Source: an uncultured Desulfovibrio sp.
GTDB taxonomy: Bacteria > Desulfobacterota > Desulfovibrionia > Desulfovibrionales > Desulfovibrionaceae
DNA: 50,958 bases
Direction: 5' to 3'
Assembly: GCA_944324555.1 (NCBI GenBank)
Contig: CALUWU010000022.1
Location: forward strand, 1-50,958
Part shown: in pieces, positions 13,420-39,441 of the stretch
Numbering within the stretch: position 1 is the first letter of the stretch
Layout: each line of letters opens with the position of its first letter
Notes under the pieces: model-generated
The model's database searches: none
What the model was told of the DNA's origin: nothing
The model's input: only the letters and a program-made list of their open reading frames with translations
Made by a program: the position numbers and the translations under genes

Positions 13420-13506
13420 GAGATGCCTATAGCCTGTCAACAGGTTGTTTGTCTATGGACCTTTGATTTTCTTTTTTTCAGACATCCAATTGAAGAGGTA
13501 GTAAGT

Positions 13507-14445
13507 TTAGAATTTAACTAGGAAAAGAAATGGCCAGCTCCCCGGAATTTTTAATCTTTGTACGGCAGTGGCTCCATGCCGTTTCCAAAGATGGCAAAAA
13601 CCAACTTGAGTATAATGGCAAGTATGTCCTGGAGCATATTTAAAAAGTGATTTTGAATCATTGATATGCAGAAGCGATGCCATGATGTCATTAAGATCAT
13701 CGGTAATCGGAACGCTGATAAGAGCAGGGGTTCTATATTTTTGGCAGTAGTAAGCGATAGCTTGGCAGAGATCATCCGGATTTTGTATATGTTCAATAAC
13801 CATAATGCATATTATGACATGATGCTTGATATTGTTTTCAATAAGGAAAGGGTTTAAATCTTCTGCTGTTTGTATGGAAAAAATTTTATTATGCAAATCA
13901 AGTTTTAAATTTTTGATCCCATATTCGACAGAATCTGTCGCCAGATCATATCCGATAGTGCGAATTCCTTTTTTTTGTGCCTCATGGAGGAGCCAGCCTG
14001 GGCCGCACCCGATCTCGACAATAAATTCAATTGGATTTTCAAACAGTGTAGTAAATTTTGAAAGTAAATGCTGACTGAGCTTCCGATTACGCAATTCAAA
14101 ATTTAAATGAGAAACAAGAGAATTGTTTACAGAAGAGAATTCTTTGGTATCGTGACTTATTTCTTGTATAGTAATATGCTGAGGAGTTCTGATTGTTCCG
14201 CAATCAGGACAGAAATAGATGGGGGTCAAAGGGTGAAAGCGATCTCGAGGCAGAAAACTGCCTACGTATTTTACATCCGATAAACATGCTGGACATTTAA
14301 AAAATATTTTTTGAAGAAGATGATCATTATTAAAATGGATAAAATTCATATTAATATCAGTATCATCAAGAGAAAAGAAGTCTGATAGCAATTCTTCTGA
14401 TAAGGAAGATAGTATTTCGGATTGCAGAAAATTCTTTTTCATCAT
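13507..14445 (-). CDS. SAM-dependent methyltransferase with N-terminal zinc ribbon
   Basis: A 312-residue protein starting MMKKNFLQSEIL at 14445 behind GGGG (the second Met is equally possible); a start at 14475 would overlap the upstream gene. Cys51-x2-Cys54 and Cys79-x2-Cys82 form a zinc ribbon like that of sugar C- and O-methyltransferases. The Rossmann motif I EIGCGPG lies at 144-150, with the acidic end of beta-2 in GYDL. Its place in a glycan cassette suggests methylation of a sugar or of the glycan end. It is the last gene of the A+T-rich cassette and differs sharply in base composition from the GC-rich genes that follow. Confidence 0.85.
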   Translation of the reverse strand: MMKKNFLQSEILSSLSEELLSDFFSLDDTDINMNFIHFNNDHLLQKIFFKCPACLSDVKYVGSFLPRDRFHPLTPIYFCPDCGTIRTPQHITIQEISHDTKEFSSVNNSLVSHLNFELRNRKLSQHLLSKFTTLFENPIEFIVEIGCGPGWLLHEAQKKGIRTIGYDLATDSVEYGIKNLKLDLHNKIFSIQTAEDLNPFLIENNIKHHVIICIMVIEHIQNPDDLCQAIAYYCQKYRTPALISVPITDDLNDIMASLLHINDSKSLFKYAPGHTCHYTQVGFCHLWKRHGATAVQRLKIPGSWPFLFLVKF

Positions 14446-14459
14446 TTTCCCCTTTATTT

Positions 14460-15521
14460 CTATATTTTCTGGCAAAGAGCGGCGCTACGTTTCATTTCTT
14501 CAGGACGCGTACAGATACAATTGGGAATACCATAGCTTGTAAACTTGGGGGTAGATGATTTAAAATCAATATTTATCCATTTCTTTATTTCGTGTACGAG
14601 CTTTTCGCGTCCTGATGCTTTCAGATGTTCCGCATCCGTAAATTCTGTGCTTGCAGCGAGCTCTGAGAAATCCTTGACCAAGGCTCCAGCTGACAAACAA
14701 TAATTTTTAACTTTTTCAATATTATTTTTCATAAGGGGAATTTCATTTTTATGAATGAGGAGTTGATAGTTTATCGGCGTTATAAATATGTATGGAATAA
14801 AATTTTTATGTTGTAAAATTTTAATTACAGAAATAAGATTTTGTATCCTTACTTTTATAAATTCGATAGGAAAACAGTAGTGAAAAGATGTTCTGAAAGC
14901 TAATTCACGCCGATATCCTGTAGTCGAATTTTTTAAGATCGTTTCAGTATAAAATTTTGTTTTTTTCAGCATGGCGTCAGAATGCGTAATATAAAAATAA
15001 TAAGGTAAATAAATTTTTTCGATGATTGGCGACAGGAGAATTTTTTGTAATCGCAACGAGTTACAAGCAGAGCGCAGGCTTTCAAATTGATAGGCTGGAC
15101 GCAGATACCATTCATCAGATAATGAGCGTAAGTTAAATTCAAGCAAGAATATTTTAGGTAGCGTAGTTTTTGGGATAAGCGTAAAAACATCTTTATATAA
15201 AATAGGTGAAAATGCACCACAGTTAAATGATAATATTTTTGCATTCAACTGACGAGAAATTTTTTGTCCCAATGTTTCTTTATCTTGTTCTTTGGAGTCA
15301 ACAGCAAGGATAACAGAATCTCCGCAGAGGTACATATCATAATTTTTATTAAAAGATTCAATATAATTTGATATATACAGCTGTTTATTATAAAATTCTG
15401 AACGAATCTGGAAAAAAAAATCTTTTTCTTCGTAAGGTAGCTGGTGAAAAGTTAATATTTTTTTTGAATCAGGGAATAAATATTTATATCGAATAGATTT
15501 TATTATTTCAGGGATGTTCAT
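14460..15521 (-). CDS. SGNH/GDSL-hydrolase-like protein
   Basis: A 353-residue protein starting MNIPEIIKSIRYKYLF at 15521 with AGGAG seven bases upstream. It has a GDS motif at 67-69 (YLCGDSV), the nucleophile block of SGNH hydrolases. A later Asp296-Ala-Glu-His299 segment (TDAEHLKASGREKLV) matches the D-x2-H block V, where the His and Asp complete the triad. The region LLEFNLRSLSDEW resembles DltD- and AlgX-like O-acyltransferase relatives. I see no clear signal peptide, so a periplasmic site is uncertain. A likely role is adding or removing acyl groups on the glycan. It is A+T-rich, in the middle of the cassette, and lies 14 bp before the methyltransferase gene. Confidence 0.7.
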   Translation of the reverse strand: MNIPEIIKSIRYKYLFPDSKKILTFHQLPYEEKDFFFQIRSEFYNKQLYISNYIESFNKNYDMYLCGDSVILAVDSKEQDKETLGQKISRQLNAKILSFNCGAFSPILYKDVFTLIPKTTLPKIFLLEFNLRSLSDEWYLRPAYQFESLRSACNSLRLQKILLSPIIEKIYLPYYFYITHSDAMLKKTKFYTETILKNSTTGYRRELAFRTSFHYCFPIEFIKVRIQNLISVIKILQHKNFIPYIFITPINYQLLIHKNEIPLMKNNIEKVKNYCLSAGALVKDFSELAASTEFTDAEHLKASGREKLVHEIKKWINIDFKSSTPKFTSYGIPNCICTRPEEMKRSAALCQKI

Positions 15522-15548
15522 ATACTTCTCCTATTCAAAGAAAAAATT

Positions 15549-17252
15549 TTATGTCCATAAAATAGACTGCTGACAAACGGCTGCTATATCTTCAGCTTTA
15601 ATATTGGCGCTCTTGTTTTTTTTGCATATAATATAAGTGTCATTTGTAAATTCAATACCATTGGGATAAAAACGATGCTCAATAGAAAATCCAGAAGCAA
15701 CGAGCATGAGTTCAAAAAGACTACGAGATGGCTCATAACCCATAAGAGAATCTCGTTTATATTTAAGACAACGATTTTGCATGACAGGATTGGGATTATT
15801 TGTAGTTTGGGTACTGAATACAAATGTAGAAGCTGAAAGTAGGGAACAGTAATCAAGAAAGAGTTGTGGATACCGAAAATGATAAATAAGTCCTAACATG
15901 AATATAATATCAAATTCTCCATAAGTATGAGCATTAAAAAGAGTGTCTTTGCATATTTTTACATTATTTATAAAAGATTCTCCTTTATGTTTCATATAGC
16001 TGATATAAAGATTTTGCTGTGCGATATACTTTGCTCCAATCTCAAGCGTTGTCACTTTTGCACCACGTTTAGCGCATTCAAATGCTATTCCTCCGCCATT
16101 GCTGCCACAATCAAGAATGCGGGTTCCTTCTTCAATCTTGAGATACGGTGCAAGCATGTCAAATTGCGCTTTGACATCCCAGCGCCCTGGTGAAAAAATA
16201 TTATCGCCAAAGTCAATCTTTTGATTCCAAGGTTGCAGTATTTTTATTTCTTGTCTAATATTTTGCATCTGTGTAATCCTGTTTGAATTTATTTCAATAG
16301 GTGCTTGCTCTACTATATGCTGCGGAGGATAAGGAGCTACTTTTGTACATGTTTCTAAAATATTACAATCATATTTTTTTATATTTATATGAACTACATT
16401 TTGATTTTTATCATAAAAATCAAAGTATTTTTTTATAATTTCTTCAGGGTTGTATACTGTATTCCGAACTTTAAATATTTGCTGATTTTGAAAGGTACAT
16501 TTTAAAGAATTGTATATTGCTGGATGAATAGGAAAGAAACTATTTGCAAGATATTCATTTTTGGTTTTTATATTAATGGTTTCTCCAGAAATCATATTAC
16601 AGATTTTATTTGTAATATAGTTCAAGAGGTAGTTCGTGGGATGATTGAATGTCCAAAATAAACGATGGGCAGTATAATTTTCAAGAATAAAATCAGAAAA
16701 TATTATTGGCGTGATTGCAGATGACACTTGTGAGAATTGGATAAGCGATGCTTCTCGCTTTGCAAGCGATAAATGAGCATTTTGTACCAGGTTTGGGTTA
16801 AATGTTATGCTTTCAGGTGAAGTAAGAAGTTCTGCTGCCTGCTTGATCGTATATCCTTTTGTATATGAATAAAAAATAATTTTATTGTGATAGTCGAAAA
16901 GTTCAGTATTTTTTGTTCCATCGTCATTTTTAAAATAAAAGAGCTCAGGTGTCAGACCTTCCCAGTGGATTGAGGGGACAACAATGATTTTTGCCTGTGA
17001 TGGGAGAAGTGAAATAAGAGTTCGCGTATCTATACCAAGATTATTACGATATCCTGCATGAACATAGGAGCAAAGTAAAATGTCACAAGAGACTACGTGA
17101 TGATAGAAATCTTTTACTTGATCTGCTGTAATTACATGAACTGGATGGCCAAGAGTAATGGAAAAATTTTCCTTGAAATTGTGATTAGTATAGAGAGCAT
17201 TGGTAATTGCCGTCATTTGGCAATTACCAATTGCAGCGATTTTTTTCATCAT
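15549..17252 (-). CDS. WcbI-like domain fused to a methyltransferase
   Basis: A 567-residue two-domain protein starting at 17252 behind AAGGA. Residues 1 to about 300 match the WcbI family of polysaccharide biosynthesis proteins: GNCQ at 9-12, CSYVHAGYRNNLG, IHWEGL, and HRLFWTFNHPTNYL near 197-210. WcbI proteins belong to capsule loci, are thought to be acyl- or acetyltransferase-related, and bind coenzyme A. Residues about 345-555 are a class I SAM methyltransferase with motif I DCGSNGGG (381-388) and FMLGLIYHFRYPQLFLD. The fusion suggests two successive decorations of one sugar. It lies 10 bp after the GT2/GT-B gene. The domain calls are firm; the substrate is unknown. Confidence 0.85.
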   Translation of the reverse strand: MMKKIAAIGNCQMTAITNALYTNHNFKENFSITLGHPVHVITADQVKDFYHHVVSCDILLCSYVHAGYRNNLGIDTRTLISLLPSQAKIIVVPSIHWEGLTPELFYFKNDDGTKNTELFDYHNKIIFYSYTKGYTIKQAAELLTSPESITFNPNLVQNAHLSLAKREASLIQFSQVSSAITPIIFSDFILENYTAHRLFWTFNHPTNYLLNYITNKICNMISGETINIKTKNEYLANSFFPIHPAIYNSLKCTFQNQQIFKVRNTVYNPEEIIKKYFDFYDKNQNVVHINIKKYDCNILETCTKVAPYPPQHIVEQAPIEINSNRITQMQNIRQEIKILQPWNQKIDFGDNIFSPGRWDVKAQFDMLAPYLKIEEGTRILDCGSNGGGIAFECAKRGAKVTTLEIGAKYIAQQNLYISYMKHKGESFINNVKICKDTLFNAHTYGEFDIIFMLGLIYHFRYPQLFLDYCSLLSASTFVFSTQTTNNPNPVMQNRCLKYKRDSLMGYEPSRSLFELMLVASGFSIEHRFYPNGIEFTNDTYIICKKNKSANIKAEDIAAVCQQSILWT

Positions 17253-17261
17253 TGATCCTTA

Positions 17262-19451
17262 TTATAATTGTTTTATATTTTTAAATATAACAGTATCGCT
17301 TCTTTGGAAAGATGCTGCGAGATATTCGCCGAATTTTCTGCGCTCTTTTTGAGAAGGTAGAGGATGTGTTGTCAAGGAATCTTCAAGCGCATCCGCGACG
17401 CGCTGAATGGCCTGATCTGGGACATGCGCACTGTAACCAGCATGAAGAGCCAGGAAGGACGGCCAGTGTTTACGTAAAGTCTCTATATTTTCCTTCGTTT
17501 GCAAAATCTTTTTCTTCAATTCCTCTTTGCTGTTCGCAATATAATAAGCTCCCATAGGATTTTTAAATTTATCGACTTTCTCTCCATGAGGATTAAAATA
17601 GATAACAGGGCGATTCATGGCAATTGCCTCAATGATGCCAGAGCCAAAACGCGAAATAAAGATCGATCCATGCCATATCGCATCGTACATTGTTTCAGAT
17701 GTGACATTATAGGCAGAAAAATCTCCTTTATCTGCAGGATGTTGTGAAATTGTATATTTAATATTTAATTCATTACATGCGTCAACAGCGGCTTTTACCC
17801 AATCATCGCGCTTGTCTGTTAAGACGTTGTAAGAAAAATTGGAATTGATAACGATAGGATCATCGAAAGAAAAAGGATAACACTTTGCTTCTGTTGCTAA
17901 TTTGGAAATACGAGGAATGCCGCCTTCATAAATTTTTTGTTTAGTTCCTTGGAAATATTTCATGTCAAAGGCGCAAGGCGTTATGACATGATCGCAAGTT
18001 CTGTAGGTATTACGTACACGACCTGTATCGGCATCGTTATAGTCTTGGACCCCTTCTACAATCCCCATAGCCACAATGCCGGCCTTTTTTGCCGCTAGCA
18101 TCGCTGGATATGTAATAGCCTTATCCCAGTCGTTAAAAACGACGACAGCTTTTGGAGAAAAATCACCAAAGCAAAGTTGCGCTAGGCTGACATGAGGTAT
18201 ATCAGCTTTGGCCAACACAGACCGTACGCCTTCATCTCGATATATAGCTGAACAGTCTGCAACGACAAAGCTGAGCCCTTTTTCTTCAAGATACGGTTGG
18301 AGAAGTTGTACGGTTGCTGTATGATAATCTTTATGCGGGATAAAGGCGATATCTATGTTGCGCTGCCATTCTGCAGAATATATGTTTGAACTTTCTTCTT
18401 CTACATTTAAACTATTATTTAATCTTGTTTCTGTGATGAGTTGTGATAAAAAATTTGTAATTGCCAGATCATATGTTTTTAGCTCTTTTTGATCCTTTTT
18501 CAAGGAAACATTACTACGTTGAAGTCCGTAGCGTACGAGTTCAAAAGCATCAAGAGTAGTAGGAAAGCCTTGATAAAAGTGAGGAAGATATTGAGAAATT
18601 TCTTTGATATCTATTTCTATATTGTTAACAAGCTGCATCCCGACAAAACGCAAAATTCTATTTGCATACTTTTCTTCTTTTACATATTGATATGCAGGCT
18701 CATTCAATCTAATCGCAGCAATAGAAAAAAAAGTATTTTTTTTAACTTTTATATTATTATTACTATATATTTTCAAAGCATATTTTAAATGAGGACGTGC
18801 ATCTCGTCGAATCATTGAGTTTGCTTTTTCTCTATAAAAGGCATTTTGTGTATTTGTCGGAATATAAATAAAACCATGCCGAAGGATACGAGTCCAAAAA
18901 TCAAAATCTTCAGCGCCTAGAGTCAGTCTTTCATCAAACCCGCCTACGCCGCAAGCAATACTGCGACGTGTCAGAGGGGAGTGTACGACAAACGGATTAT
19001 CACCTCCTGTATATTGAAAAGAGATAACAGGACTACTTACTTTTGTACTTTCAGGACAATCTTTTTGATGTTCAGGAATGCCTCTATGCGTACTGTAACA
19101 ACCTGCGATATGCGCGCCTTTGTATTTTTGTGCTGTTGCATATCGTTCTTCCAGACAGGTTTTACTTAAAAGATCGTCGGCATCCAGAAATATAACAAAT
19201 TCGCCTGAAGCATAAAGCAATCCAATATTTCTTGCGGCTGGTAACTTTGAATTAATTTTACAACTGACAATATGGAAGCGGCTATCTCCATCTATAGCTT
19301 TTTGAGCGCATTCAATACTCTTATCGCTGGAACAATCATCAACAATAATACATTCAAATTCCTTGAATTTTTGAGCTCTGAGACATTTGATTGTATAGCC
19401 AATAAATTTTTCTTCATTCCAGAGAGGAACAATAACAGATATTTTAGGCAT
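17262..19451 (-). CDS. Two-domain glycosyltransferase: GT2 plus CDP-glycerol-transferase-like GT-B
   Basis: A 729-residue protein starting MPKISVIVPLWNEEKFIGYT at 19451; its ribosome site AAGGATC lies inside the end of the cytidylyltransferase gene, with an 8-bp overlap. Residues 1 to about 260 are a GT2 (GT-A) domain with VDDCSSDKS and the metal-binding DAD at 90-92. From about residue 365 a second unit begins (NIDIAFIPHKDYHTA) with a GT-B-like tail: SRFGSGIIEAIAMNRPVIYF. It resembles CDP-glycerol glycerophosphotransferases and related capsule polymerases. It may join a sugar and a second unit such as a phosphopolyol or the CMP-activated sugar made by its neighbour (inference). It is strongly A+T-rich. 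Confidence 0.82.
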   Translation of the reverse strand: MPKISVIVPLWNEEKFIGYTIKCLRAQKFKEFECIIVDDCSSDKSIECAQKAIDGDSRFHIVSCKINSKLPAARNIGLLYASGEFVIFLDADDLLSKTCLEERYATAQKYKGAHIAGCYSTHRGIPEHQKDCPESTKVSSPVISFQYTGGDNPFVVHSPLTRRSIACGVGGFDERLTLGAEDFDFWTRILRHGFIYIPTNTQNAFYREKANSMIRRDARPHLKYALKIYSNNNIKVKKNTFFSIAAIRLNEPAYQYVKEEKYANRILRFVGMQLVNNIEIDIKEISQYLPHFYQGFPTTLDAFELVRYGLQRSNVSLKKDQKELKTYDLAITNFLSQLITETRLNNSLNVEEESSNIYSAEWQRNIDIAFIPHKDYHTATVQLLQPYLEEKGLSFVVADCSAIYRDEGVRSVLAKADIPHVSLAQLCFGDFSPKAVVVFNDWDKAITYPAMLAAKKAGIVAMGIVEGVQDYNDADTGRVRNTYRTCDHVITPCAFDMKYFQGTKQKIYEGGIPRISKLATEAKCYPFSFDDPIVINSNFSYNVLTDKRDDWVKAAVDACNELNIKYTISQHPADKGDFSAYNVTSETMYDAIWHGSIFISRFGSGIIEAIAMNRPVIYFNPHGEKVDKFKNPMGAYYIANSKEELKKKILQTKENIETLRKHWPSFLALHAGYSAHVPDQAIQRVADALEDSLTTHPLPSQKERRKFGEYLAASFQRSDTVIFKNIKQL

Positions 19452-20139
19452 GAGATCCTTCTTTGTCATGTTGTATAAGAAACATTTTTTCTGCTATCGA
19501 GAAATCATCCTCAGTATCGATATCGTAGGATTCCTGCTGACTCATGATAAAAATATATGGCTTTTTCCCGATGCGATTTCTTTTATTATCAATAAAAGAT
19601 TGTCGAGAAAAAATATATATACAACTATTTTCTTCATAGATAGGATCGAGATCCTGCGTATTTTGCAGTATCTGAGGATTATGATTCAAAGGTAAAAAAT
19701 CTTTATCATATAGGCGTTGTTGAAGCTTCTTTGCTGAAAAGAGAGAATCATATTGTTCTATATTTTCGCAATATTTTAATATAGCCTTTTCAATTGTTTT
19801 TCTTGATAGTAGCGGATTTGTGCTATGCGTTTGAAGGAATATTTCTCCTTCACTGTGTGCAATATCATAATCAAGTATAGTATTCATTGGAATATGCCCG
19901 CCGCATATTTCAGCAGGACGATCATGAAAGCGAACTTTTGGATACTGACATGTCAATTTCTTTATTGTATCGCTATCGGTATTGATAATTATTTTTGTGA
20001 TAACGGAGATTTCAGACAATGTGTCCAGAATGTGGCAACACAGCGGCTTCCCGGCAAAGCTGCGAATATTTTTGAGGGGAACACGCTCAGAATGTCCCTT
20101 CATAGGAACCAGAGCAGTAATCTCAGGATTCTTAATCAT
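19444..20139 (-). CDS. CMP-sugar cytidylyltransferase (NeuA-like)
   Basis: A 231-residue protein starting MIKNPEITALVPMKGHSERV at 20139 behind GGGAG; the longer frame upstream lies inside the epimerase gene. The N-terminal VPMKGHSERVPLKN is the nucleotide-binding loop of CMP-acylneuraminate and CMP-Kdo synthetases. INTDSD, FLQTHSTNPLLS and the late DIDTEDDFSIAE are also diagnostic. It would activate an acidic sugar as its CMP derivative. No condensing synthase (NeuB, PseI or LegI type) or sugar-specific dehydratase and aminotransferase set is present, so the sugar is not identified and may be made elsewhere. It overlaps the epimerase gene and the glycosyltransferase gene by 8 bp each. Confidence 0.88.
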   Translation of the reverse strand: MIKNPEITALVPMKGHSERVPLKNIRSFAGKPLCCHILDTLSEISVITKIIINTDSDTIKKLTCQYPKVRFHDRPAEICGGHIPMNTILDYDIAHSEGEIFLQTHSTNPLLSRKTIEKAILKYCENIEQYDSLFSAKKLQQRLYDKDFLPLNHNPQILQNTQDLDPIYEENSCIYIFSRQSFIDNKRNRIGKKPYIFIMSQQESYDIDTEDDFSIAEKMFLIQHDKEGSHA

Positions 20140-21019
20140 TTTTTCTCCCTTCATGCTGCTGCATAGATATTTCTTCAAGACAGTCCAGTAATCCCTGACC
20201 AAAGTCTATAAATTCATTCCGGGTAATTTTTGTACCCACATGAGGATTAAAACTATAGGGGGTTAACGTATAATGACAGGAATCTTCACGCTCCTTTATC
20301 GTAATTGTTATTTTTTTATCTATTATTTCACATATCATTTTTAGGATATCTGCATATTCAAATTTTTCATTCCCTGTTATGATGATATCTTTATTTTCAT
20401 ACTTTGGATCAAGTATTGATACTGATATTTCAGCAGCATCTTGAACATGTATATATTCTCGAAGTTCCTTGCCTGTTCCTTTGTATATAATCTCTCCATT
20501 AATAAGAGCACTCTTTAATAGATTGTAAATTGAATTTCTTTCATCAGCTCTTCGGCCATACAATGAACCATATCGGATGTTAGTATATTTAAGGCCATAA
20601 ATTTCACTGAAGTCATGTATGAGGTTTTCACAAGCTATTTTTGTCGTTTTATATATATATCCATATTTACTAAATACATAAGCTGAACTTGCGAATATGA
20701 GACGCTTTATAGAGTGTTTGACGCATGACTCAAGTATGTTAAGAGTTCCAAGCGCATTAATTTCAAAAGCCTGGCGGGGATTTTTTTTACAGTCTTCAAT
20801 ACCGGATATCCCGGAAAAATGGTAGACGATATCCTTGCCTTGGATAGCTTTGTCTACGATATCCTTATCAGTAATATCGCCTATAATCGTTTTTATTTGA
20901 GGAGAAGCATACTTTGAAGCATGAATATCAAAGATTGTAACGTCATGCCCTTCTTTTTCCAGGGCATCGACAATATGGCTGCCAAGAAAACCAGAACCGC
21001 CAGTAACCAGTATCTTCAT
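20132..21019 (-). CDS. NAD-dependent sugar epimerase/dehydratase
   Basis: A 295-residue extended short-chain dehydrogenase/reductase starting MKILVTGGSGFLGSHIVDAL at 21019; residues upstream in the same frame overlap the GT25 gene and lack family likeness. It has the glycine-rich GGSGFLG NAD site, the beta-4 segment VYHFSGIS, the SSAYVF serine region and the catalytic Tyr-x3-Lys in YKTTK. NIRYGSLYGRR is the conserved loop after the catalytic helix. It would interconvert or oxidise/dehydrate a nucleotide sugar. Coupling to the cytidylyltransferase suggests both act on the same precursor. The exact reaction cannot be assigned. Confidence 0.88.
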   Translation of the reverse strand: MKILVTGGSGFLGSHIVDALEKEGHDVTIFDIHASKYASPQIKTIIGDITDKDIVDKAIQGKDIVYHFSGISGIEDCKKNPRQAFEINALGTLNILESCVKHSIKRLIFASSAYVFSKYGYIYKTTKIACENLIHDFSEIYGLKYTNIRYGSLYGRRADERNSIYNLLKSALINGEIIYKGTGKELREYIHVQDAAEISVSILDPKYENKDIIITGNEKFEYADILKMICEIIDKKITITIKEREDSCHYTLTPYSFNPHVGTKITRNEFIDFGQGLLDCLEEISMQQHEGRKND

Positions 21020-21047
21020 TTTGTTCTCGTATTTTACGGAGGAATTT

Positions 21048-22391
21048 TTAGCGCAACACATAGGCAATTTCATCGATTGTTCCCATAGAACGCGCCTGTT
21101 GATTCCCAGCATACATCGCCTTGGTTGTTATTGCAAGTATCTCATTTTGCGTAATTTTTTTCCCTCGCGGCCATGCAAGGATAATGTCTGATGCAACTTT
21201 GTTTATCAGAAGATTTTTTTGGGCTTGCAACGCAGGGACTGTCAGCGGGGGAAATACATGATAATCATGCTGAGGTGCGTCTTCAGTAATTTCTTGAAAC
21301 CCTGTTGCTGTTTCGCGCAAAAAATGAAAATGAATCTCTAACGCTGCTGTTTTTAGTTTATCTTTCATAGCTTCTGCTATTTTCATATCCTCTTGCAGCA
21401 CAATTGAAATGGTAAAAACTGCCTTGTATTCATCATATCTTGATATATTCCAATTCATCTTGAGGCTATGTTCACGTTGCTCTCTTTTTTCTCTAATATT
21501 GCTATCCTGAACGTCTGGAATACAGACAGCCTCACTAAACACAAAGCATTTATTTTTATGTTTAAGATAACTTGACCCTAATACGGCATTGTCAAATGGT
21601 CCTATGTTTTCTTTAATATTGAAGTGTACTTCATTGTAGATGTGTTTATCGTAGATGACAGCAAAGCTGCCGCACGTATATCCGGGTATTGGGTTGTATA
21701 TTGAATTGTTAAGTGTATAGTCAAGAAAATACTTTGATTTTTTGTTGCTGTATTCTGAAGCACCCAAAAGAATTATTTTAAAATCATCTGGTATGGTATT
21801 TGCTATTTTGTAAATGAGATTTTCTGCATTCTGATGGAAGAAGACGTCATCGTCAAAAACAAGAATTTTTTCATATTTTTTTTGCATCGCATCTTCTAGA
21901 ATATACTTTTGCGATAGAAGATATCCAAATACATTTGGCGTTAAATCTTTTTTCCAAAACTGTTTGATCTCTTTTGGAATATGCATATCCGAAAATGAAT
22001 AGATGTCGGGGGTGCGGGTTTGAAAGCTATTGAAGGCCTTTTGCGCTTCATTGTTTGAACCATCAACAGCCTCTACCATAGTTACTTGAAGGCCATGATT
22101 ATTCATTTCGCGCAACATGCGAATTCGTCTATCAAGGCGTGATGCTAAACTTATAACATATATTTTATCAATACCAAAAGCATTTTGCAATGCTGTTGCT
22201 AATGAACTTGAGCCGATAGACTCTTCTTTCCGGGCCCACCGCAATCTATTTTTACAATATTCTATATTTGCTCTTGCAAGAGGGGCATGTTCATGATATC
22301 GTTTAGAAAATTGTTCATAACACAGGAGTGCTTTTTCATAGCGACCTTGTTTTATAAAGTTAAACGCTTCTGCAATAAAGTTTGTTGCCAT
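21048..22391 (-). CDS. GT25-family glycosyltransferase with N-terminal repeat-like segment
   Basis: A 447-residue protein. Residues about 1-50 form helix-turn-helix TPR-like repeats (FNFIKQGRYEKALLCYEQF). From about residue 72 a GT25 domain begins with IDKIYVISLASRLDRRIRML, the hallmark of the LPS/collagen-type galactosyltransferase family. It continues with the acidic metal site LVFDDDVFF and GSFAVIYDKHIYNEV. About 150 C-terminal residues have no assigned family. It would add a sugar, often galactose in this family, to the glycan. The start is the ATG at 22391 with GGAT seven bases upstream. It is A+T-rich and lies 9 bp after the small coiled-coil gene. Confidence 0.85.
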   Translation of the reverse strand: MATNFIAEAFNFIKQGRYEKALLCYEQFSKRYHEHAPLARANIEYCKNRLRWARKEESIGSSSLATALQNAFGIDKIYVISLASRLDRRIRMLREMNNHGLQVTMVEAVDGSNNEAQKAFNSFQTRTPDIYSFSDMHIPKEIKQFWKKDLTPNVFGYLLSQKYILEDAMQKKYEKILVFDDDVFFHQNAENLIYKIANTIPDDFKIILLGASEYSNKKSKYFLDYTLNNSIYNPIPGYTCGSFAVIYDKHIYNEVHFNIKENIGPFDNAVLGSSYLKHKNKCFVFSEAVCIPDVQDSNIREKREQREHSLKMNWNISRYDEYKAVFTISIVLQEDMKIAEAMKDKLKTAALEIHFHFLRETATGFQEITEDAPQHDYHVFPPLTVPALQAQKNLLINKVASDIILAWPRGKKITQNEILAITTKAMYAGNQQARSMGTIDEIAYVLR

Positions 22392-22400
22392 AGAAGTATC

Positions 22401-22856
22401 CTAACTGTTCTTTTCTAGTTGAGAATATTTTTCAACTTCTTGCTGTAGAATCGTGAGCTGCTCGAGAAGATAACCGTTTTCTTCTTGAAGTTCCTTAATC
22501 TGTTTGCGTACCTTATATGGGATATAATCATCATATTTAGAAGGGACTTCTTTGGATTGGGAGAGGAACGAAGCGTTTTCTTCGTGGAATTCTTGTTGTT
22601 GCTCTGTAGTCTTTTGGGGAAAGTTACGTTTTTCGCTGATTCCATATTTTACATAATGTTCAATTGCTCCTATTCCATTAGTAGATACATCTGGATTGGC
22701 AGCCATATAAGCTTTTTCGTCGAATAAGCCGCTCCGCCGTAAAGCCTGTATGGTTGCCCTTTGGGGATCCGTTTGCCACAGGTCTCTGGGGGCAAGGGCA
22801 TAAAAATCTTCAATTGAAAATTCTTTTGGAAGAGCGAAAGGCAAGGTCTCTGTCAT
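22401..22856 (-). CDS. Small protein with NPDV-type glycosyltransferase-associated motif and coiled coil
   Basis: A 151-residue protein starting MTETLPFALPKEFSIEDFYA at 22856 behind AGGAG. Residues 42-80 carry SGLFDEKAYMAANPDV, then EHYVKYGISEKRNFP. This short repeat type (FD...Y...NPDV...HY...G..E.R) usually sits at the ends of large glycosyltransferases and capsule proteins. Residues about 113-150 are a Glu/Gln/Leu-rich coiled coil. There is no signal peptide. It is the first gene of the A+T-rich cassette, about 40 bp beyond the terminator at 22898-22940. It may be a scaffold linking cassette enzymes, or a remnant of a larger glycosyltransferase; no function is known. Confidence 0.7.
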   Translation of the reverse strand: MTETLPFALPKEFSIEDFYALAPRDLWQTDPQRATIQALRRSGLFDEKAYMAANPDVSTNGIGAIEHYVKYGISEKRNFPQKTTEQQQEFHEENASFLSQSKEVPSKYDDYIPYKVRKQIKELQEENGYLLEQLTILQQEVEKYSQLEKNS

Positions 22857-22897
22857 TATTTGGCAACTCCTTGAATATAAAGGAAAAATTTTATAAA

Positions 22898-22940
22898 ATA
22901 TAACAGTGACGCTTACTTTTGGCAAGCGTCACTGTTATAT
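22898..22940 (-). terminator. Intrinsic terminator at the cassette boundary
   Basis: A perfect 17-bp inverted repeat (22898-22914 and 22924-22940) with a 9-base loop lies just after the stop of the radical-SAM/glycosyltransferase gene. On the minus strand it is followed by TTTATAAAATTTTTCC. It should end or reduce transcription from the upstream block, so the A+T-rich cassette needs its own promoter or depends on readthrough. Confidence 0.85.
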
Positions 22941-22943
22941 GCG

Positions 22944-25900
22944 TTAGTTTGTATGTGTTGTCGCTACAGCATGCAGCAGCGCCCGGATCAAACATGGCTG
23001 TAGAGGTTCTATTGAGTGTTTTTGTAATTTGTGCACCGGCAGCCAATAATCTGTTGCAACAGAATCGAGCAGTGCAAAAAGAGCTGCGTCCGCCATGGCG
23101 TTCCAAGCCTTTTTGTCTTGTAACAAGAGCTGCCAGCTGGCGAAGTATTTTTCGACTTCGGCAGCCGATATGGAAACATCCTTGGAAGATGGCACTGTCT
23201 CTGCTTGGCGATAAAGGGCTATCGTCGAGCTCATTTGAATGCGCGCATGAGGAAGCAGAGACAATACAAAGTGTTCTTGCCAGCGAGGAGCTTCTGCGGA
23301 AAAGGTTGATTCCGCCAGCAGAGAACGACGAAATACCATCCCTGCTCCATCAATGGGAATCCCTTTTTCCAAGAAACAGACTGCCAGCTCGGAGCCTTTT
23401 TTTATCGTATCGTCTGACAATGTGAAAGTTAGAGTATTCGCTCTTTCAGTACGGCTTGAGGAAAAGACGTATATATCTGATGTTGAGGCGTGCAGTTGCT
23501 GTACTGCTTCCGATAGAAAATCAGATGAAAGTTCGTCATTTTCATCAAGGAAGACAACCCCCTGCCCACGTGCATGCTGTAAGCCGATATTGCGACAATG
23601 CGCAGGATGCGCTGTTTTCTGCATGCGGAAGAGGTGGAGCTGCGGATACATGTCCGTCAGATCTTCCAATGCTATTCGCGTTGAGGCATCGCAGCCGTTG
23701 TCGATAAGCAGACATTCTGTCTGTGATGGATCCATACGTTGCAGGAGTTCCATCATCGCTGGCGCGAGCATATTTTCCACTGTGATGATCAGTGAGAGAA
23801 CTGGCTGCAAACCTAGGTCCTGGGATATGGCGCCGTAGGAAATAGATTCGGGAGGCGCGGCGGGAGTTGAAGCTAGTTGTACCGGGACAGTCGATAATGG
23901 CAGCGCTGCCGCAATGTCGTCCAGTAATTCTGGAAGCTGAGCCATTATTTTCATAAATTTTTCCGGCAACAGTTCTTCGAAATCCGTAATGTTGTCGATT
24001 TCCCGCAGGCATTGGCTCAGCGGATGTTGAATATCCGCGAAGCGACGACGTATCCAGGCTGCCCACAAGGAATCATCCCCGGGCAGATTATGCGCCGCGC
24101 GAAAACGAAGCGCGAGGTCCAGCTCTTCAAAGAAAGCGCGAATGCTTTCCCGTGGTTTGACTGGAGAAGCAGCCTCGTCGTCGCAATGTTCGGTCAGCTG
24201 GCCGGGGAGCGAAAGAATCTTGTCTGCCAGATAGAGGAACTGGAAAGTAAAAATATCGCTCTCTTGTCCGCTTTGGGCGTTGACTGTCAGCAAGTGCTTT
24301 CGCAACAGGGGCGTCGCAAAGATCTTATCACGCAAGCCTGGCGCGCCAAATTGTCCCGTAAGGAAGCGCGTCAGTGCCAGCGCGCCTTTCATGACCTGCC
24401 GTGTCAGCCCTTCGGACGAAAGCACGGCCATATCGGCATGTTCCTCTTCAAGAGCGGTAACTGTCGTGGACAGGGCCTGATCCGCAAACGTATCGCCACA
24501 GACGAGCAAACAGGCATAGTCGCCCTGCGCCATGTCCAGACCGGCATTCCATGCGGCCTGCAGAGAAAACGTCTCGTCAAAGCGGAAGGGGCGCACCTGC
24601 CAGGGAGCGCGGCGGGCAAAGGCGTCCGCCGTTGTGCTTGCGGCGCCGCTCGCGTCGTCCAGCACGACGATAATTTCCAGCCGGGGCAAGGGTTGGGCCA
24701 GCGCGCTTTCCAGAGAACGCGCCAGAGCTTCTCCGTCCTGCGTTGCGGGCAGAATGACGGAGAGCAGCGGAGGGCTATCCTTGTAACGGGGAGGAAGCGG
24801 CATCCGGCGAGCGCTAAGGGTACGCGGCATGGCATGCAGGCAAAGACCGTCTTCTTCGGTAAGATGCAGCGCATATTCCGGCAAGGCCTCGTGCAGCAAA
24901 AGTATCAAATCGAGCCAGTCCGTTTCTGGAAGCTCCATCATGATACCTGGATGATACCACTGGATACGAGGTAGCAGCGCGCGAAGTTGTTGCGCCGTCA
25001 TGTTCGGCGCAAGATGCAGGATACCGTTTTCCTCGTGGAGTACGGGCGTCGATTGAGACTGCGCAGCGATTTCGCCGGCGGAGGATTTTTCGTCGTGCTT
25101 TTGGCTTGTTTCCTTGTCTGGCGCCAAGCCGTTGTCTGCCTTGGCTGGAACCTTGACGGCTGCATTTACGGTGGTGTTGTCTTCATCTTCCAGAACAAGA
25201 AGATCCGAGGCCATGGCCTGCACGGCTGCGGGAACGGCGGAGGGCATGTCCTCGCCGGAGGTCAGCAGCGTTTTTTTGAGACGACGCTCAAAGCATGCGC
25301 GATCCTCTTCGTTTTCAAGGATATTCCAGACGTGCAGAATATCCGCGCGTCGTTCTTGCCAGAGCTGAGGCGCGCCTCCCCTTTCGCCCTGACAAGCGAC
25401 ATGGTATCGCTTCAGGCGTTGACGCAGACGCTGTTCATCCGTCATGCCCGTGTGCAGAGGATGACGAATCGCGCCGCCGTCCAGCTCCTGCCGCAGAGCA
25501 GTTCTGCCAAAGGCTTTCAGCCAGGCCTCGGCGTCCGCATGGCTGGGAAAGGAGGGTATCTGAGGGAATCCGGGGCGCATGAGAGGCAACTTCATGACGC
25601 GGGGATGAAAGTCATCATCCTCTGCCGCCAGCCCGAGCGTAAGTTTCCCTTCCGGCGTAACATGGACGCTGGTTGCGCCGAGGCAGCAATAGGGAGCGGA
25701 CCCGGACCCGGCATGCTGCGGCGTTGCCAGCGGCATGCGCGCCGTTATGGCCCAGGCGGGGAGTCTGACAGGAGCGGCGACGGACGTAAAGGCATTCATT
25801 GCCGCTTGCGCCGACGCGGGATCTCCACCAAGCGGGAGACGGATTTCAAGGGCGAAGGGAAGCTGACGGCTGAAAATCGCAAGCTTCTGATAAAGAGTTT

Positions 25901-26390
25901 CGGCCTTGCGCGCGTATTCCGATACGTGATTGATAACGACTCGGCAATGCTGCTTGTTCTCAATAATGAGCGCCATTAGAGGGAGCAATTGCTCAAGCGT
26001 CAGATATTTCAGGTGAACGTCAATATTGCAGCACAGAATTCCATGCGGTATTCCTTGCAGCAATTTCTTGTAATAATCGGGAGAGCGCAGTCCGTTGGTA
26101 TCCAGTACGATGTTCAGCTGTTTTCCCGAGGTGGCAATATAGCGAAAAAGTTCCGGGAAATGCGGATGGATGGTCGGCTCGCCCCCGTAAAAATGAACAA
26201 CGGGGTTGGGGCGTTGCAGACTTAGCAGCGTATAAGCCGCTTCCAGCAGCGGTTCCCTATAATATTTCTCCTGCAGGGCGCTTGCCGGCTCATGATTATA
26301 GCTGCATTCATGATTGCAACCGTCCAGCAGATGCCAGTCGATGTAAAAGCTCGAAATCTGATCCGGAAAATTTGCACGGGGGGATTGCAT
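22944..26390 (-). CDS. Radical-SAM-like domain fused to two GT2 domains; third cluster cysteine replaced
   Basis: A 1148-residue fusion. Residues about 14-260 look like a radical SAM enzyme: DGCNHECSYNHE (23-34), GGEP at 69-72, DTNG at 97-100 and a SPASM-like tail (YCCLGATSVHVTPEGK). The cluster motif is Cys25-x3-Cys29-x2-Asn32 instead of C-x3-C-x2-C, so normal binding of a [4Fe-4S] cluster is doubtful. A low-complexity linker (about 380-450) leads to GT2 unit a (about 541-770), which lacks a clear DxD motif (LLVCGDTFAD), and GT2 unit b (about 861-1080), which has VVFLDENDEL. The last GT2 unit may be the only active transferase. The start is the ATG at 26390, 11 bp after the upstream gene. 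Its base composition lies between the GC-rich genes and the cassette. Confidence 0.85.
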   Translation of the reverse strand: MQSPRANFPDQISSFYIDWHLLDGCNHECSYNHEPASALQEKYYREPLLEAAYTLLSLQRPNPVVHFYGGEPTIHPHFPELFRYIATSGKQLNIVLDTNGLRSPDYYKKLLQGIPHGILCCNIDVHLKYLTLEQLLPLMALIIENKQHCRVVINHVSEYARKAETLYQKLAIFSRQLPFALEIRLPLGGDPASAQAAMNAFTSVAAPVRLPAWAITARMPLATPQHAGSGSAPYCCLGATSVHVTPEGKLTLGLAAEDDDFHPRVMKLPLMRPGFPQIPSFPSHADAEAWLKAFGRTALRQELDGGAIRHPLHTGMTDEQRLRQRLKRYHVACQGERGGAPQLWQERRADILHVWNILENEEDRACFERRLKKTLLTSGEDMPSAVPAAVQAMASDLLVLEDEDNTTVNAAVKVPAKADNGLAPDKETSQKHDEKSSAGEIAAQSQSTPVLHEENGILHLAPNMTAQQLRALLPRIQWYHPGIMMELPETDWLDLILLLHEALPEYALHLTEEDGLCLHAMPRTLSARRMPLPPRYKDSPPLLSVILPATQDGEALARSLESALAQPLPRLEIIVVLDDASGAASTTADAFARRAPWQVRPFRFDETFSLQAAWNAGLDMAQGDYACLLVCGDTFADQALSTTVTALEEEHADMAVLSSEGLTRQVMKGALALTRFLTGQFGAPGLRDKIFATPLLRKHLLTVNAQSGQESDIFTFQFLYLADKILSLPGQLTEHCDDEAASPVKPRESIRAFFEELDLALRFRAAHNLPGDDSLWAAWIRRRFADIQHPLSQCLREIDNITDFEELLPEKFMKIMAQLPELLDDIAAALPLSTVPVQLASTPAAPPESISYGAISQDLGLQPVLSLIITVENMLAPAMMELLQRMDPSQTECLLIDNGCDASTRIALEDLTDMYPQLHLFRMQKTAHPAHCRNIGLQHARGQGVVFLDENDELSSDFLSEAVQQLHASTSDIYVFSSSRTERANTLTFTLSDDTIKKGSELAVCFLEKGIPIDGAGMVFRRSLLAESTFSAEAPRWQEHFVLSLLPHARIQMSSTIALYRQAETVPSSKDVSISAAEVEKYFASWQLLLQDKKAWNAMADAALFALLDSVATDYWLPVHKLQKHSIEPLQPCLIRALLHAVATTHTN

Positions 26391-34899: not shown

Positions 34900-36045
34900 T
34901 TACGCGCCGGCGTAGGCGTCAATAACGTAGTTTTCGCCGTCAACGCCGAGCACCTTCACGGTTTCGGCGTCGGTGGCCACAGCGTAGGCCACATCAACGC
35001 GATCCATGGTGCCGTTGTTGAGGGCATCCAGCCACGCCGCCTGGTTGGCGTTGCTGATACCGGCGTTGCTGATCAGCGTGTTGACGTAATCAGCGTTGCT
35101 CATGCTGTCGTACTTGGCGTGGAATTCGTCGCAGTTCAGGAACGAACGCACCAGATGGTCGGTGGTACCGTCGGTCGCGCCCTTTTCGAACTCGTTCATC
35201 CACCAGTTGATGCCGCCCAGGGTGCTGCCGCCCCAGCCGTCGGCGCCGTCGATGGCTTCGCGGCCCAGGGCCACCTTGTACAGCGTGGCAACCAGAGCGT
35301 CGTTGGAGTTTTCGGCAAGAACGGTGATGTTGTCGGCGCTGGTGATCTGGCCGTCCTTGTTGGTGTCGAAGGTCACGACCTGCACGCCGTCCATGGTCAC
35401 GCCATAGTTGCTGTGCATGATCACGTTGCCGTTGGCGTCAACAGCGAAGGTGTGGTTGGCGCGGTTGTCCTGCAGGGACAGGCGGTCGAAGCCGTCGCCC
35501 GCGTTCACCGTGGCGTTGCCGGTGGCGTTGGCGTCAAGCCAGATGGTCATGTCGCCGGTGCCGCCGGTAACGTTGGCGGTGGCGTTGGCGCCGGTCAGCA
35601 CCACGCTGTCGTTGCCTTCGCCCGTGTTGACGGTGGCGTTGCCGCCGTTGAGCACGAGGTTGTCGTTGCCGCCGGCGGTCGTGATGTTGTCCTGGCCGCC
35701 AGTGGTTTCAACGCTGATGGCCTTGTCGGCCTGGAAGGTCACGTTGTTGTTGCCGCTGCCCAGCACCATGGCGTCGATCTTCGAGCTGGCGCTGAAGGTC
35801 ACGTCGGCGGAGGAGTTGCCGCTCATGATCACGACGGGCGCGCCCAGATCCTGGGTGAGGTGAGCGCCGGCGTTCACCGTGACGAGCTGCGTGCCGGCGT
35901 CGACGGGGGTGGTGCCGTCGGACTGGGCAATCAGGGCGTTGCTGTCAAGACCGCCAAGCAGAGAAGCAATGGCGTCTTTGGTGGACTGGCTGAGGCCGGA
36001 AATATTGTCGATAACATTACCGACCGACTGTTCGTAAGAAGCCAT
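34900..36045 (-). CDS. RTX-like surface protein with DUF4214 domain and many N-X-S/T sequons
   Basis: A 381-residue acidic protein starting MASYEQSVGNVIDNISG at 36045, with GGAGG six bases upstream; in-frame codons further up lack this. Residues about 50-190 are short Gly/Asn/Asp/Thr repeats (GGNDNLVLNGG, GEGNDSVVL) like RTX or parallel beta-helix proteins. An EF-hand-type calcium loop spans 227-238 (Asp227, Asn229, Asp231, Asp238). DUF4214 covers about 245-345 (YKVALGREAIDGADGW). There is no signal peptide, so type I secretion with a C-terminal signal is likely. It has 13 N-X-S/T sequons (Asn 14, 77, 101, 120, 136, 145, 154, 158, 173, 177, 197, 239, 344). Strong promoter, ribosome site and terminator suggest high expression, as for a surface-layer protein. 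Confidence 0.85.
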   Translation of the reverse strand: MASYEQSVGNVIDNISGLSQSTKDAIASLLGGLDSNALIAQSDGTTPVDAGTQLVTVNAGAHLTQDLGAPVVIMSGNSSADVTFSASSKIDAMVLGSGNNNVTFQADKAISVETTGGQDNITTAGGNDNLVLNGGNATVNTGEGNDSVVLTGANATANVTGGTGDMTIWLDANATGNATVNAGDGFDRLSLQDNRANHTFAVDANGNVIMHSNYGVTMDGVQVVTFDTNKDGQITSADNITVLAENSNDALVATLYKVALGREAIDGADGWGGSTLGGINWWMNEFEKGATDGTTDHLVRSFLNCDEFHAKYDSMSNADYVNTLISNAGISNANQAAWLDALNNGTMDRVDVAYAVATDAETVKVLGVDGENYVIDAYAGA

Positions 36046-36202
36046 GATTCCTCCCAATTGGATTGGCTAGAAGGGTGTCGGAATGGCGAGGCGGGGCGAC
36101 GCGATGTCGCGGCCTTTTCCCTGAAAGGGCTTTCCCGCTTCGCACGGGAAAATATGACGTAAAGAACTCTCTTTCAAATCCCTGTCACTGTCAAGCGAAA
36201 GT
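36046..36202 (-). other. Long structured 5' leader of the surface-protein mRNA
   Basis: If transcription starts near 36203, the message has a leader of about 158 bases. It contains a stem TTTCCCG/CGGGAAA (36131-36137 with 36145-36151) and a neighbouring small hairpin based on CCCTTT/AAAGGG, ending in a strong ribosome site (GGAGGAATC before the ATG). Structured leaders of this sort often stabilise mRNAs of abundant surface proteins. The spacer 36046-36351 holds no gene; its plus-strand side must also carry the start of the manB transcript, but I find no clear promoter for it. Confidence 0.5.
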
Positions 36203-39346: not shown

Positions 39347-39441
39347 TGGCGGAGAGAGTGGGATTCGAACCCACGTACCGGGGATTAGCCGGTAACTCGA
39401 TTTCGAGTCGAGCGCGTTACGGCCAGCTTCGCTACCTCTCC
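39347..39441 (-). tRNA. tRNA-Ser(CGA), CCA encoded
   Basis: On the minus strand the 5' GGAGAGG pairs with TCTCTCC before discriminator G and an encoded CCA. The anticodon arm is CTCGA, loop CTCGAAA, TCGAG, giving anticodon CGA (plus-strand 39403-39405). The T arm reads GTGGGTTCGAATCCCAC, and a long variable arm (TACCGGCTAATCCCCGGTA) is typical of serine tRNAs. The length of 95 bases with CCA fits a class II tRNA. It reads UCG codons. Confidence 0.97.

Follow-up and report, generated by a model that had tools for sequence, protein, structure and literature searches.

A pseudo-radical-SAM domain fused to two GT2-like units as a candidate non-catalytic module of a Desulfovibrio glycan locus

What does a radical S-adenosylmethionine (SAM) domain do when its cluster loop lacks the third cysteine and the rest of the protein resembles glycosyltransferases? 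This question is raised by a gene in a 50,958-nucleotide stretch of DNA from an uncultured Desulfovibrio sp. (contig CALUWU010000022.1), hereafter the window. The gene (P0001; 22944..26390, minus strand) encodes a 1148-aa protein in which a pseudo-radical-SAM domain is followed by a linker and two units resembling glycosyltransferase family 2 (GT2). We give a probability of roughly one half to the whole reading, namely, that the N-terminal part is pseudo-radical-SAM and has been retained as a non-catalytic recognition or scaffold module of surface-glycan assembly. The ligand loss is common to a small conserved family of two genera, which argues for such a kept module and against a freshly broken enzyme or an exotic cluster.

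The gene was defined from its open reading frame (ORF), which begins with ATG and has no internal stop across 1148 aa, and from Pfam. Translation and Pfam bore out the initial annotation of a radical-SAM/GT2/GT2 fusion with a C-x3-C-x2-N motif (C25-x3-C29-x2-N32-H33), and GGEP and DTNG were found by translation where it had placed them, at residues 69-72 and 97-100. Radical_SAM matched residues 22-112 (5.1e-9; 37.0 bits for the whole protein and 39.6 for the domain; cut-off 29.5), Glycos_transf_2 (PF00535) matched two stretches (4.3e-29, best 544-658), and Glyco_tranf_2_2 matched residues 889-964. The N-terminal domain, including a vestigial SPASM-like hairpin, was delimited as residues 1-330 (25401..26390, minus strand) from the Pfam match at 22-112, alignments and a weak AlphaFold2 model. 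GGE, DxD, RN and SPASM motifs are used here in their established meanings.

The degenerate cluster loop, CNHECSYNHEP (residues 25-35; 26286..26318, minus strand), was recognized by translation and family comparison. Its codons, TGC AAT CAT GAA TGC AGC TAT AAT CAT GAG CCG, occur once, at 26318-26286 on the minus strand; Asn32 is thus present in the DNA, as had been claimed, and a translation slip was discarded. Among the 32 Radical_SAM matches of the window genome, 27 have CX3CX2C and three have three cysteines at another spacing; of the remaining two, one runs off its contig and the other is the window protein, without the third Cys. This genome is a draft of 192 contigs, 88% complete, which would leave room for a sequencing or assembly artefact, but relatives in other assemblies likewise lack the triad, and an artefact is hardly credible.

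These relatives, together with the window, form a core family of six loci (the window, L002, L003, L112, L138 and L185) in five genomes and two genera. L002 and L003 were found by a genome-contig scan in one goat-rumen Desulfovibrionaceae assembly, taken as G080 (the window's genus), and genome searches added L112 (G012), L138 (G084) and L185 (G314; a different genus of the same family). L138 covers only the first ~156 residues before its contig ends; it was counted in the six-locus loop tallies and left out of the tree, the five-row conserved-position counts, and the auxiliary-Cys and GT2 counts. L185 stops at a contig end before GT2 unit 2, and L002 runs into a contig end.

No core locus has an intact triad. 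The loop reads CNHECSYN in the window (two of three Cys), LNHDCPYS in L002 and LNHNCPYS in L185 (one each), and LNHETEYS in L003 and LNHDTPYS in both L112 and L138 (none). Inspection of column 32 in homologues, as the initial annotation had proposed, gave Cys in 0 of 6 core loci, the opposite of the Cys-bearing homologues that would have told against its reading, and Ser in all five relatives. GGEP aligned at 69-72 in all six. A lone exchange of one ligand for Asn was therefore rejected, since the relatives carry Ser and drop other cysteines too, and the alignments indicate that the emphasis on Asn32 alone was too narrow and that the degraded GT2 units had been overlooked.

The same loops bear on the idea of a working radical-SAM enzyme whose unusual cluster is held by C25 and C29 with Asn32/His33 or an external ligand. 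The window protein has the two Cys, the Asn and the His that this requires, and keeps GGEP and TNG. However, relatives lose C25 and/or C29: no Cys is left at a triad position in L003, L112 and L138, a single one remains in L002 and L185, Ser occupies position 32 in all five, His33 is replaced by Ser in L003, and the auxiliary cysteines are gone as well. Such a cluster would need to apply to the window protein alone, and we consider this option of the initial annotation very improbable.

The losses extend beyond the triad when the core rows are aligned with intact relatives, 13 domains with CNYxCSYC-like loops that were chosen as intact by the triad itself. These came from Selenomonas ruminantium (L004) and from the window's genus (L113, L139 with two domains, L141 and L188), family (L150 and L187), order (L114, L116, L149 and L152) and phylum (L199). 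The triad count is uninformative here because the rows were sorted by it; what counts independently is that further features divide the rows in the same way. Five auxiliary Cys columns are present in the intact rows, four in 12/12 and the fifth in 10/12, and the five core rows that reach this region retain one Cys altogether, C235 of the window (1/5 in the window; 0/5 in each of L002, L003, L112 and L185). Over all eight triad and auxiliary columns, the window keeps C25, C29 and C235, L002 and L185 keep C29, and L003 and L112 keep none. The SPASM-like tail of the initial annotation was thus upheld in part: a vestigial auxiliary-cluster hairpin (CCLGATSVHVTPEGKLTLGL; residues 235-254; 25629..25688, minus strand), identified by translation and alignment, is recognizable by C235, G238 and G248, but the other four of the five auxiliary columns are without Cys. 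C236, invariant in four rows, was tried as a retained auxiliary ligand and rejected: the intact Cys aligns with position 235, where only the window has one, and L185 has no Cys at 236.

Glu128 is E in 12/12 intact rows and K in 5/5 core rows. Of the positions conserved to 80% or more in intact rows, S30, S101, S124, N263 and K280 have also been lost by the five core rows. Thirteen residues are kept, namely, W19, N26, Y31, GGEPT at 69-73, P76, N99, H126, G238 and G248, and the retained GGEPTIHP loop (residues 69-76; 26163..26186, minus strand) was read by translation and alignment. The core rows also have in common many residues that intact rows seldom carry. With both iron-sulfur (Fe-S) sites lost and the fold and pocket motifs kept, this is the pattern expected of a domain freed from radical chemistry yet still used. 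Judged from the aligned sequences, the core family has lost its predicted Fe-S ligands, and it very probably performs no radical-SAM cluster chemistry. The combined loss of triad and auxiliary Cys across the core loci supports the pseudoenzyme, one of the options in the initial annotation.

The degraded genes do not look like genes in decay. Frames are open from ATG over 1148 aa in the window, 1151 in L003 and 1149 in L112, and over 1133 aa to the contig end in L002. Five pairs among L002, L112, L138 and L185 gave ratios of nonsynonymous to synonymous substitution rates (dN/dS) of 0.046-0.171, rough values given a dS of 1.6-2.9, close to saturation, and purifying selection is indicated in these closer core pairs by their codon comparison. 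The radical-SAM part is conserved above the glycosyltransferase part, with identities of 70% versus 57% between L112 and L002 and of 43-47% versus 27-29% between the window and L002/L003. A recent loss of function in a decaying gene, which the initial annotation had allowed for, would fit the departure of the window from the intact pattern at just one of three triad positions and the degradation of the GT2 units. The loss is nevertheless shared by six loci of two genera, the genes have long open frames, and dN/dS is low in the measurable pairs; we give recent decay very little credence.

A class-wide profile search of 348 genomes placed core members in five, within two genera; it returned 32 matches, all of which were read, and the triad was absent in 10 and present in 22. 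The alignment table took 21 of these matches, the remaining 11 having been read for the triad alone, and gained rows from elsewhere, L004 from the contig scan and L199 from the phylum-wide search. That search, of 395 genomes sampled from the larger group at an E of <=1e-12, yielded the window plus a single intact fusion (G525), with no degraded member beyond the window's family. Besides the core loci, four more diverged loci lack the triad, L137 (G080), L140 and L186 (both G077) and L115 (G024). The single loop Cys of L140 aligns in column 32, and a rule that position 32 is never Cys was consequently dropped for the wider degraded set; it is true for the six core loci. In the tree, the nine degraded rows fall together across one branch (92/93); several of these rows have very long branches, given which a single origin is no more than a possibility.

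Two of the diverged loci deserve separate mention. L186 (1-2247) is a GT2-like fusion that has lost the triad and GGEP and kept four of the five auxiliary Cys columns, the reverse of the window family. L115 (5774-10531) encodes 1585 aa with an N terminus that matches the degraded radical-SAM profile at 4.7e-14, and the protein is without triad, GGEP or auxiliary cysteines.

We then turn to the C-terminal half, where both GT2-like units were delimited by Pfam, a small GT2 profile and motif reading. At the DxD site of unit 1 (residues 537-657; 24420..24782, minus strand), the window has LLVCGD, L002 FVRPGE, L003 FLRPGC, L112 FLKSGE and L185 FLRCGD, so that DxD is found in none of five. At that of unit 2 (residues 861-985; 23436..23810, minus strand), it is lost in three of four: L002 has FLKGSD, L003 FIERVE and L112 FVNATD, and the window has FLDEND, its site reading DENDE. 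The RN motif of unit 2 is missing from the same three relatives, while the window keeps CRNIGL. An active glycosyltransferase, in which unit 2 of the window is catalytic and the radical-SAM remnant and unit 1 serve only for substrate recruitment or the cohesion of the protein, would agree with CRNIGL and DENDE, with the small-profile score of unit 2 (51.8 bits, versus 35.2 for unit 1) and with the diverged L140, two of whose four GT2 units look canonical (FVDSDD/FLDSDD, RN). Unit 2 is, however, degraded in L002, L003 and L112, so its catalysis is not a family trait, and we regard this explanation as unlikely.

The gene next to the fusion suggests a partner. A double group-1 (GT4-type) glycosyltransferase gene of 899 aa (P0005; 26402..29101, minus strand) lies 11 bp upstream of the fusion gene. 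A relative of it directly precedes L003 (48% identity), and its second half precedes L185 (45% identity), in both cases with the order and strand of the window, so that three of the six core loci have this gene as a neighbor. The genome of L138, G084, carries it on a different contig. Among the 348 class genomes, five have a core member, seven the double glycosyltransferase gene and four both (hypergeometric 2.9e-7, or 1.2e-5 minus the window genome, with relatedness ignored). The same strand further carries genes of GT2, GT4, GT25-type, epimerase, cytidylyltransferase, WcbI-like and methyltransferase kinds, and a DUF4214 protein of 385 aa (34900..36057, minus strand), with Gly/Asn/Asp-rich repeats by reading, is encoded upstream in the same-strand run; it may conceivably be the glycan acceptor.

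We picture the favored route, that of a retained non-catalytic module, as follows. An active enzyme of the radical-SAM/SPASM type, at home in glycan loci, would have been the ancestor. Its descendant would have lost both Fe-S sites, the auxiliary one and the [4Fe-4S] site that cleaves SAM, so that we infer a cluster-free protein, and would have stayed folded as a non-catalytic module. The old radical-SAM pocket (GGEPTIHP, TNG, His126 and Lys128) might then bind the sugar, nucleotide sugar or acceptor once modified by the ancestor. What is bound would be presented for transfer by the neighboring double glycosyltransferase, perhaps in a complex with it, and/or by the GT2 unit 2 of the window protein, which is less degraded. 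The recognition or scaffold role of the fusion protein as such is proposed tentatively. A bolder version would make the conserved protein a string of three enzyme domains that are dead or nearly so, one pseudo-radical-SAM and two of GT2 type (the first pseudo-, the second pseudo- or near-pseudo-), maintained by selection as the recognition scaffold of a double glycosyltransferase for a surface glycan. Its radical-SAM pocket would have been re-tuned, with Lys for Glu128 and a new Y-[SN]-x-x-P motif where the cluster loop had been, and would bind a sugar or nucleotide sugar with neither iron nor radicals; this we find doubtful.

Several observations weigh against a retained non-catalytic module working with the double glycosyltransferase. 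The window protein retains C25, C29 and C235 and may, judging from these residues, bind some metal, and its GT2 unit 2 is near-canonical in its motifs and possibly a working transferase. Window pairs mostly have saturated dS, and the computable dN/dS values, 0.265 (radical-SAM part, with L003) and 0.252 (glycosyltransferase part, with L002), come with a dS of 2.0-3.6. L002, L112 and L138 do not have the double glycosyltransferase gene beside them, a genome search did not find it in G012, and G035, G083 and G275 carry it but no detected core member; the half-gene beside L185, at a contig end, has no Pfam match at an E of <=1e-5. AlphaFold2 gave a mean predicted local distance difference test (pLDDT) score of 50.8 for the full fusion protein and 63.0 for residues 1-330, a weak model in which loop 24-33 falls below 50 and residues 81-180 are well predicted, and Foldseek matched nothing in the PDB to the N-terminal model at an E of <=0.001.

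The alignment behind the model of residues 1-330 had 30 rows: 27 of 69 usable relatives after removal of near-duplicates, plus the window, L002 and L003. Of the partial (beta/alpha) barrel expected by descent, this weak model shows alternating strands and helices. The best 50 Foldseek rows are for the most part barrel proteins; radical-SAM proteins are represented by Cfr alone, at rank 8 (E 0.02), and a profile search of PDB sequences returned a single weak match, 7tol (E 0.043).

Some features of the surroundings stand apart from these arguments. Positions 13501-22500 of the window have 32-37% GC, against 62-64% in the left flank and 46% climbing to 55-67% in the right flank; the stretch holds the methyltransferase, WcbI-like, GT2, cytidylyltransferase, epimerase and GT25-type genes, ends beside the fusion gene and looks like an acquired sugar-pathway island. 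A 174-aa protein encoded at 22401-22925 had no Pfam match at an E of <=0.01, and a 74-residue stretch of it is 47% identical to the N terminus of a GT2-like protein adjoining the L115 gene. An Rfam scan gave tRNA only, a tRNA-Ser (CGA) at 39347-39441 on the minus strand. Among the intact relatives, L139 (5093-9070; G066) encodes 1325 aa with a tandem pair of intact radical-SAM/SPASM-like domains, preceded, by eye, by several copies of a GW...REDV...GF module; a similar stretch starts the window double glycosyltransferase (residues ~14-75).

Among kinases and proteases, derivatives without catalytic activity are familiar. An open-licence literature search found nothing on a non-catalytic radical-SAM domain fused to glycosyltransferases. 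Intact, partly degraded and fully degraded members together offer a system for testing how a radical-SAM barrel can be used without its cluster, and the group directs attention to a radical-SAM reaction at glycan loci, with a chemistry that goes unnamed in the curated families examined. It also carries a warning for annotation: on its score above the Radical_SAM cut-off, the window gene would be labeled an iron-sulfur enzyme, whereas three close relatives lie below that cut-off (PF04055 scores of 27.8 bits for L002, 21.9 for L003 and 21.0 for L112).

The protein was also compared with known families. Prokaryotic viperin (NF038283) is the top-scoring radical-SAM model for both the window protein and L004, but the window protein is unlike viperin in its score (26.3 bits against a cut-off of 180, on which membership was rejected), its incomplete triad and its glycan setting; MoaA membership was rejected at 17 bits against a cut-off of 284. 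The NCBIfam family TIGR04347, a "pseudo-SAM/SPASM protein" (pseudo_SAM_Halo) that appears among the families listed for the intact L113, is a precedent in kind by its curated name alone; it is absent among the 25 of 26 families listed for the window protein at an E of <=0.01, where the best score is 60.9 bits, the cut-off of TIGR04347 being 525. Among GT2 glycosyltransferases (PF00535), which the window protein matches in two stretches, the core members stand out by the absence of DxD from unit 1 in 5/5 and from unit 2 in 3/4. The closest comparison is with intact radical-SAM/SPASM-type proteins of glycan loci, for which no curated family attained its cut-off in a family-profile scan. They share the domain by sequence, the glycan setting (L187 adjoins DegT aminotransferase, epimerase and NeuB genes; L004 has GT2 genes on both sides and a DegT gene further upstream) and the fusion to GT2-like stretches (L114 and, by reading only, L116 and L199). 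These intact proteins carry the triad, by row selection, and the auxiliary cysteines, whereas the core family has kept neither set.

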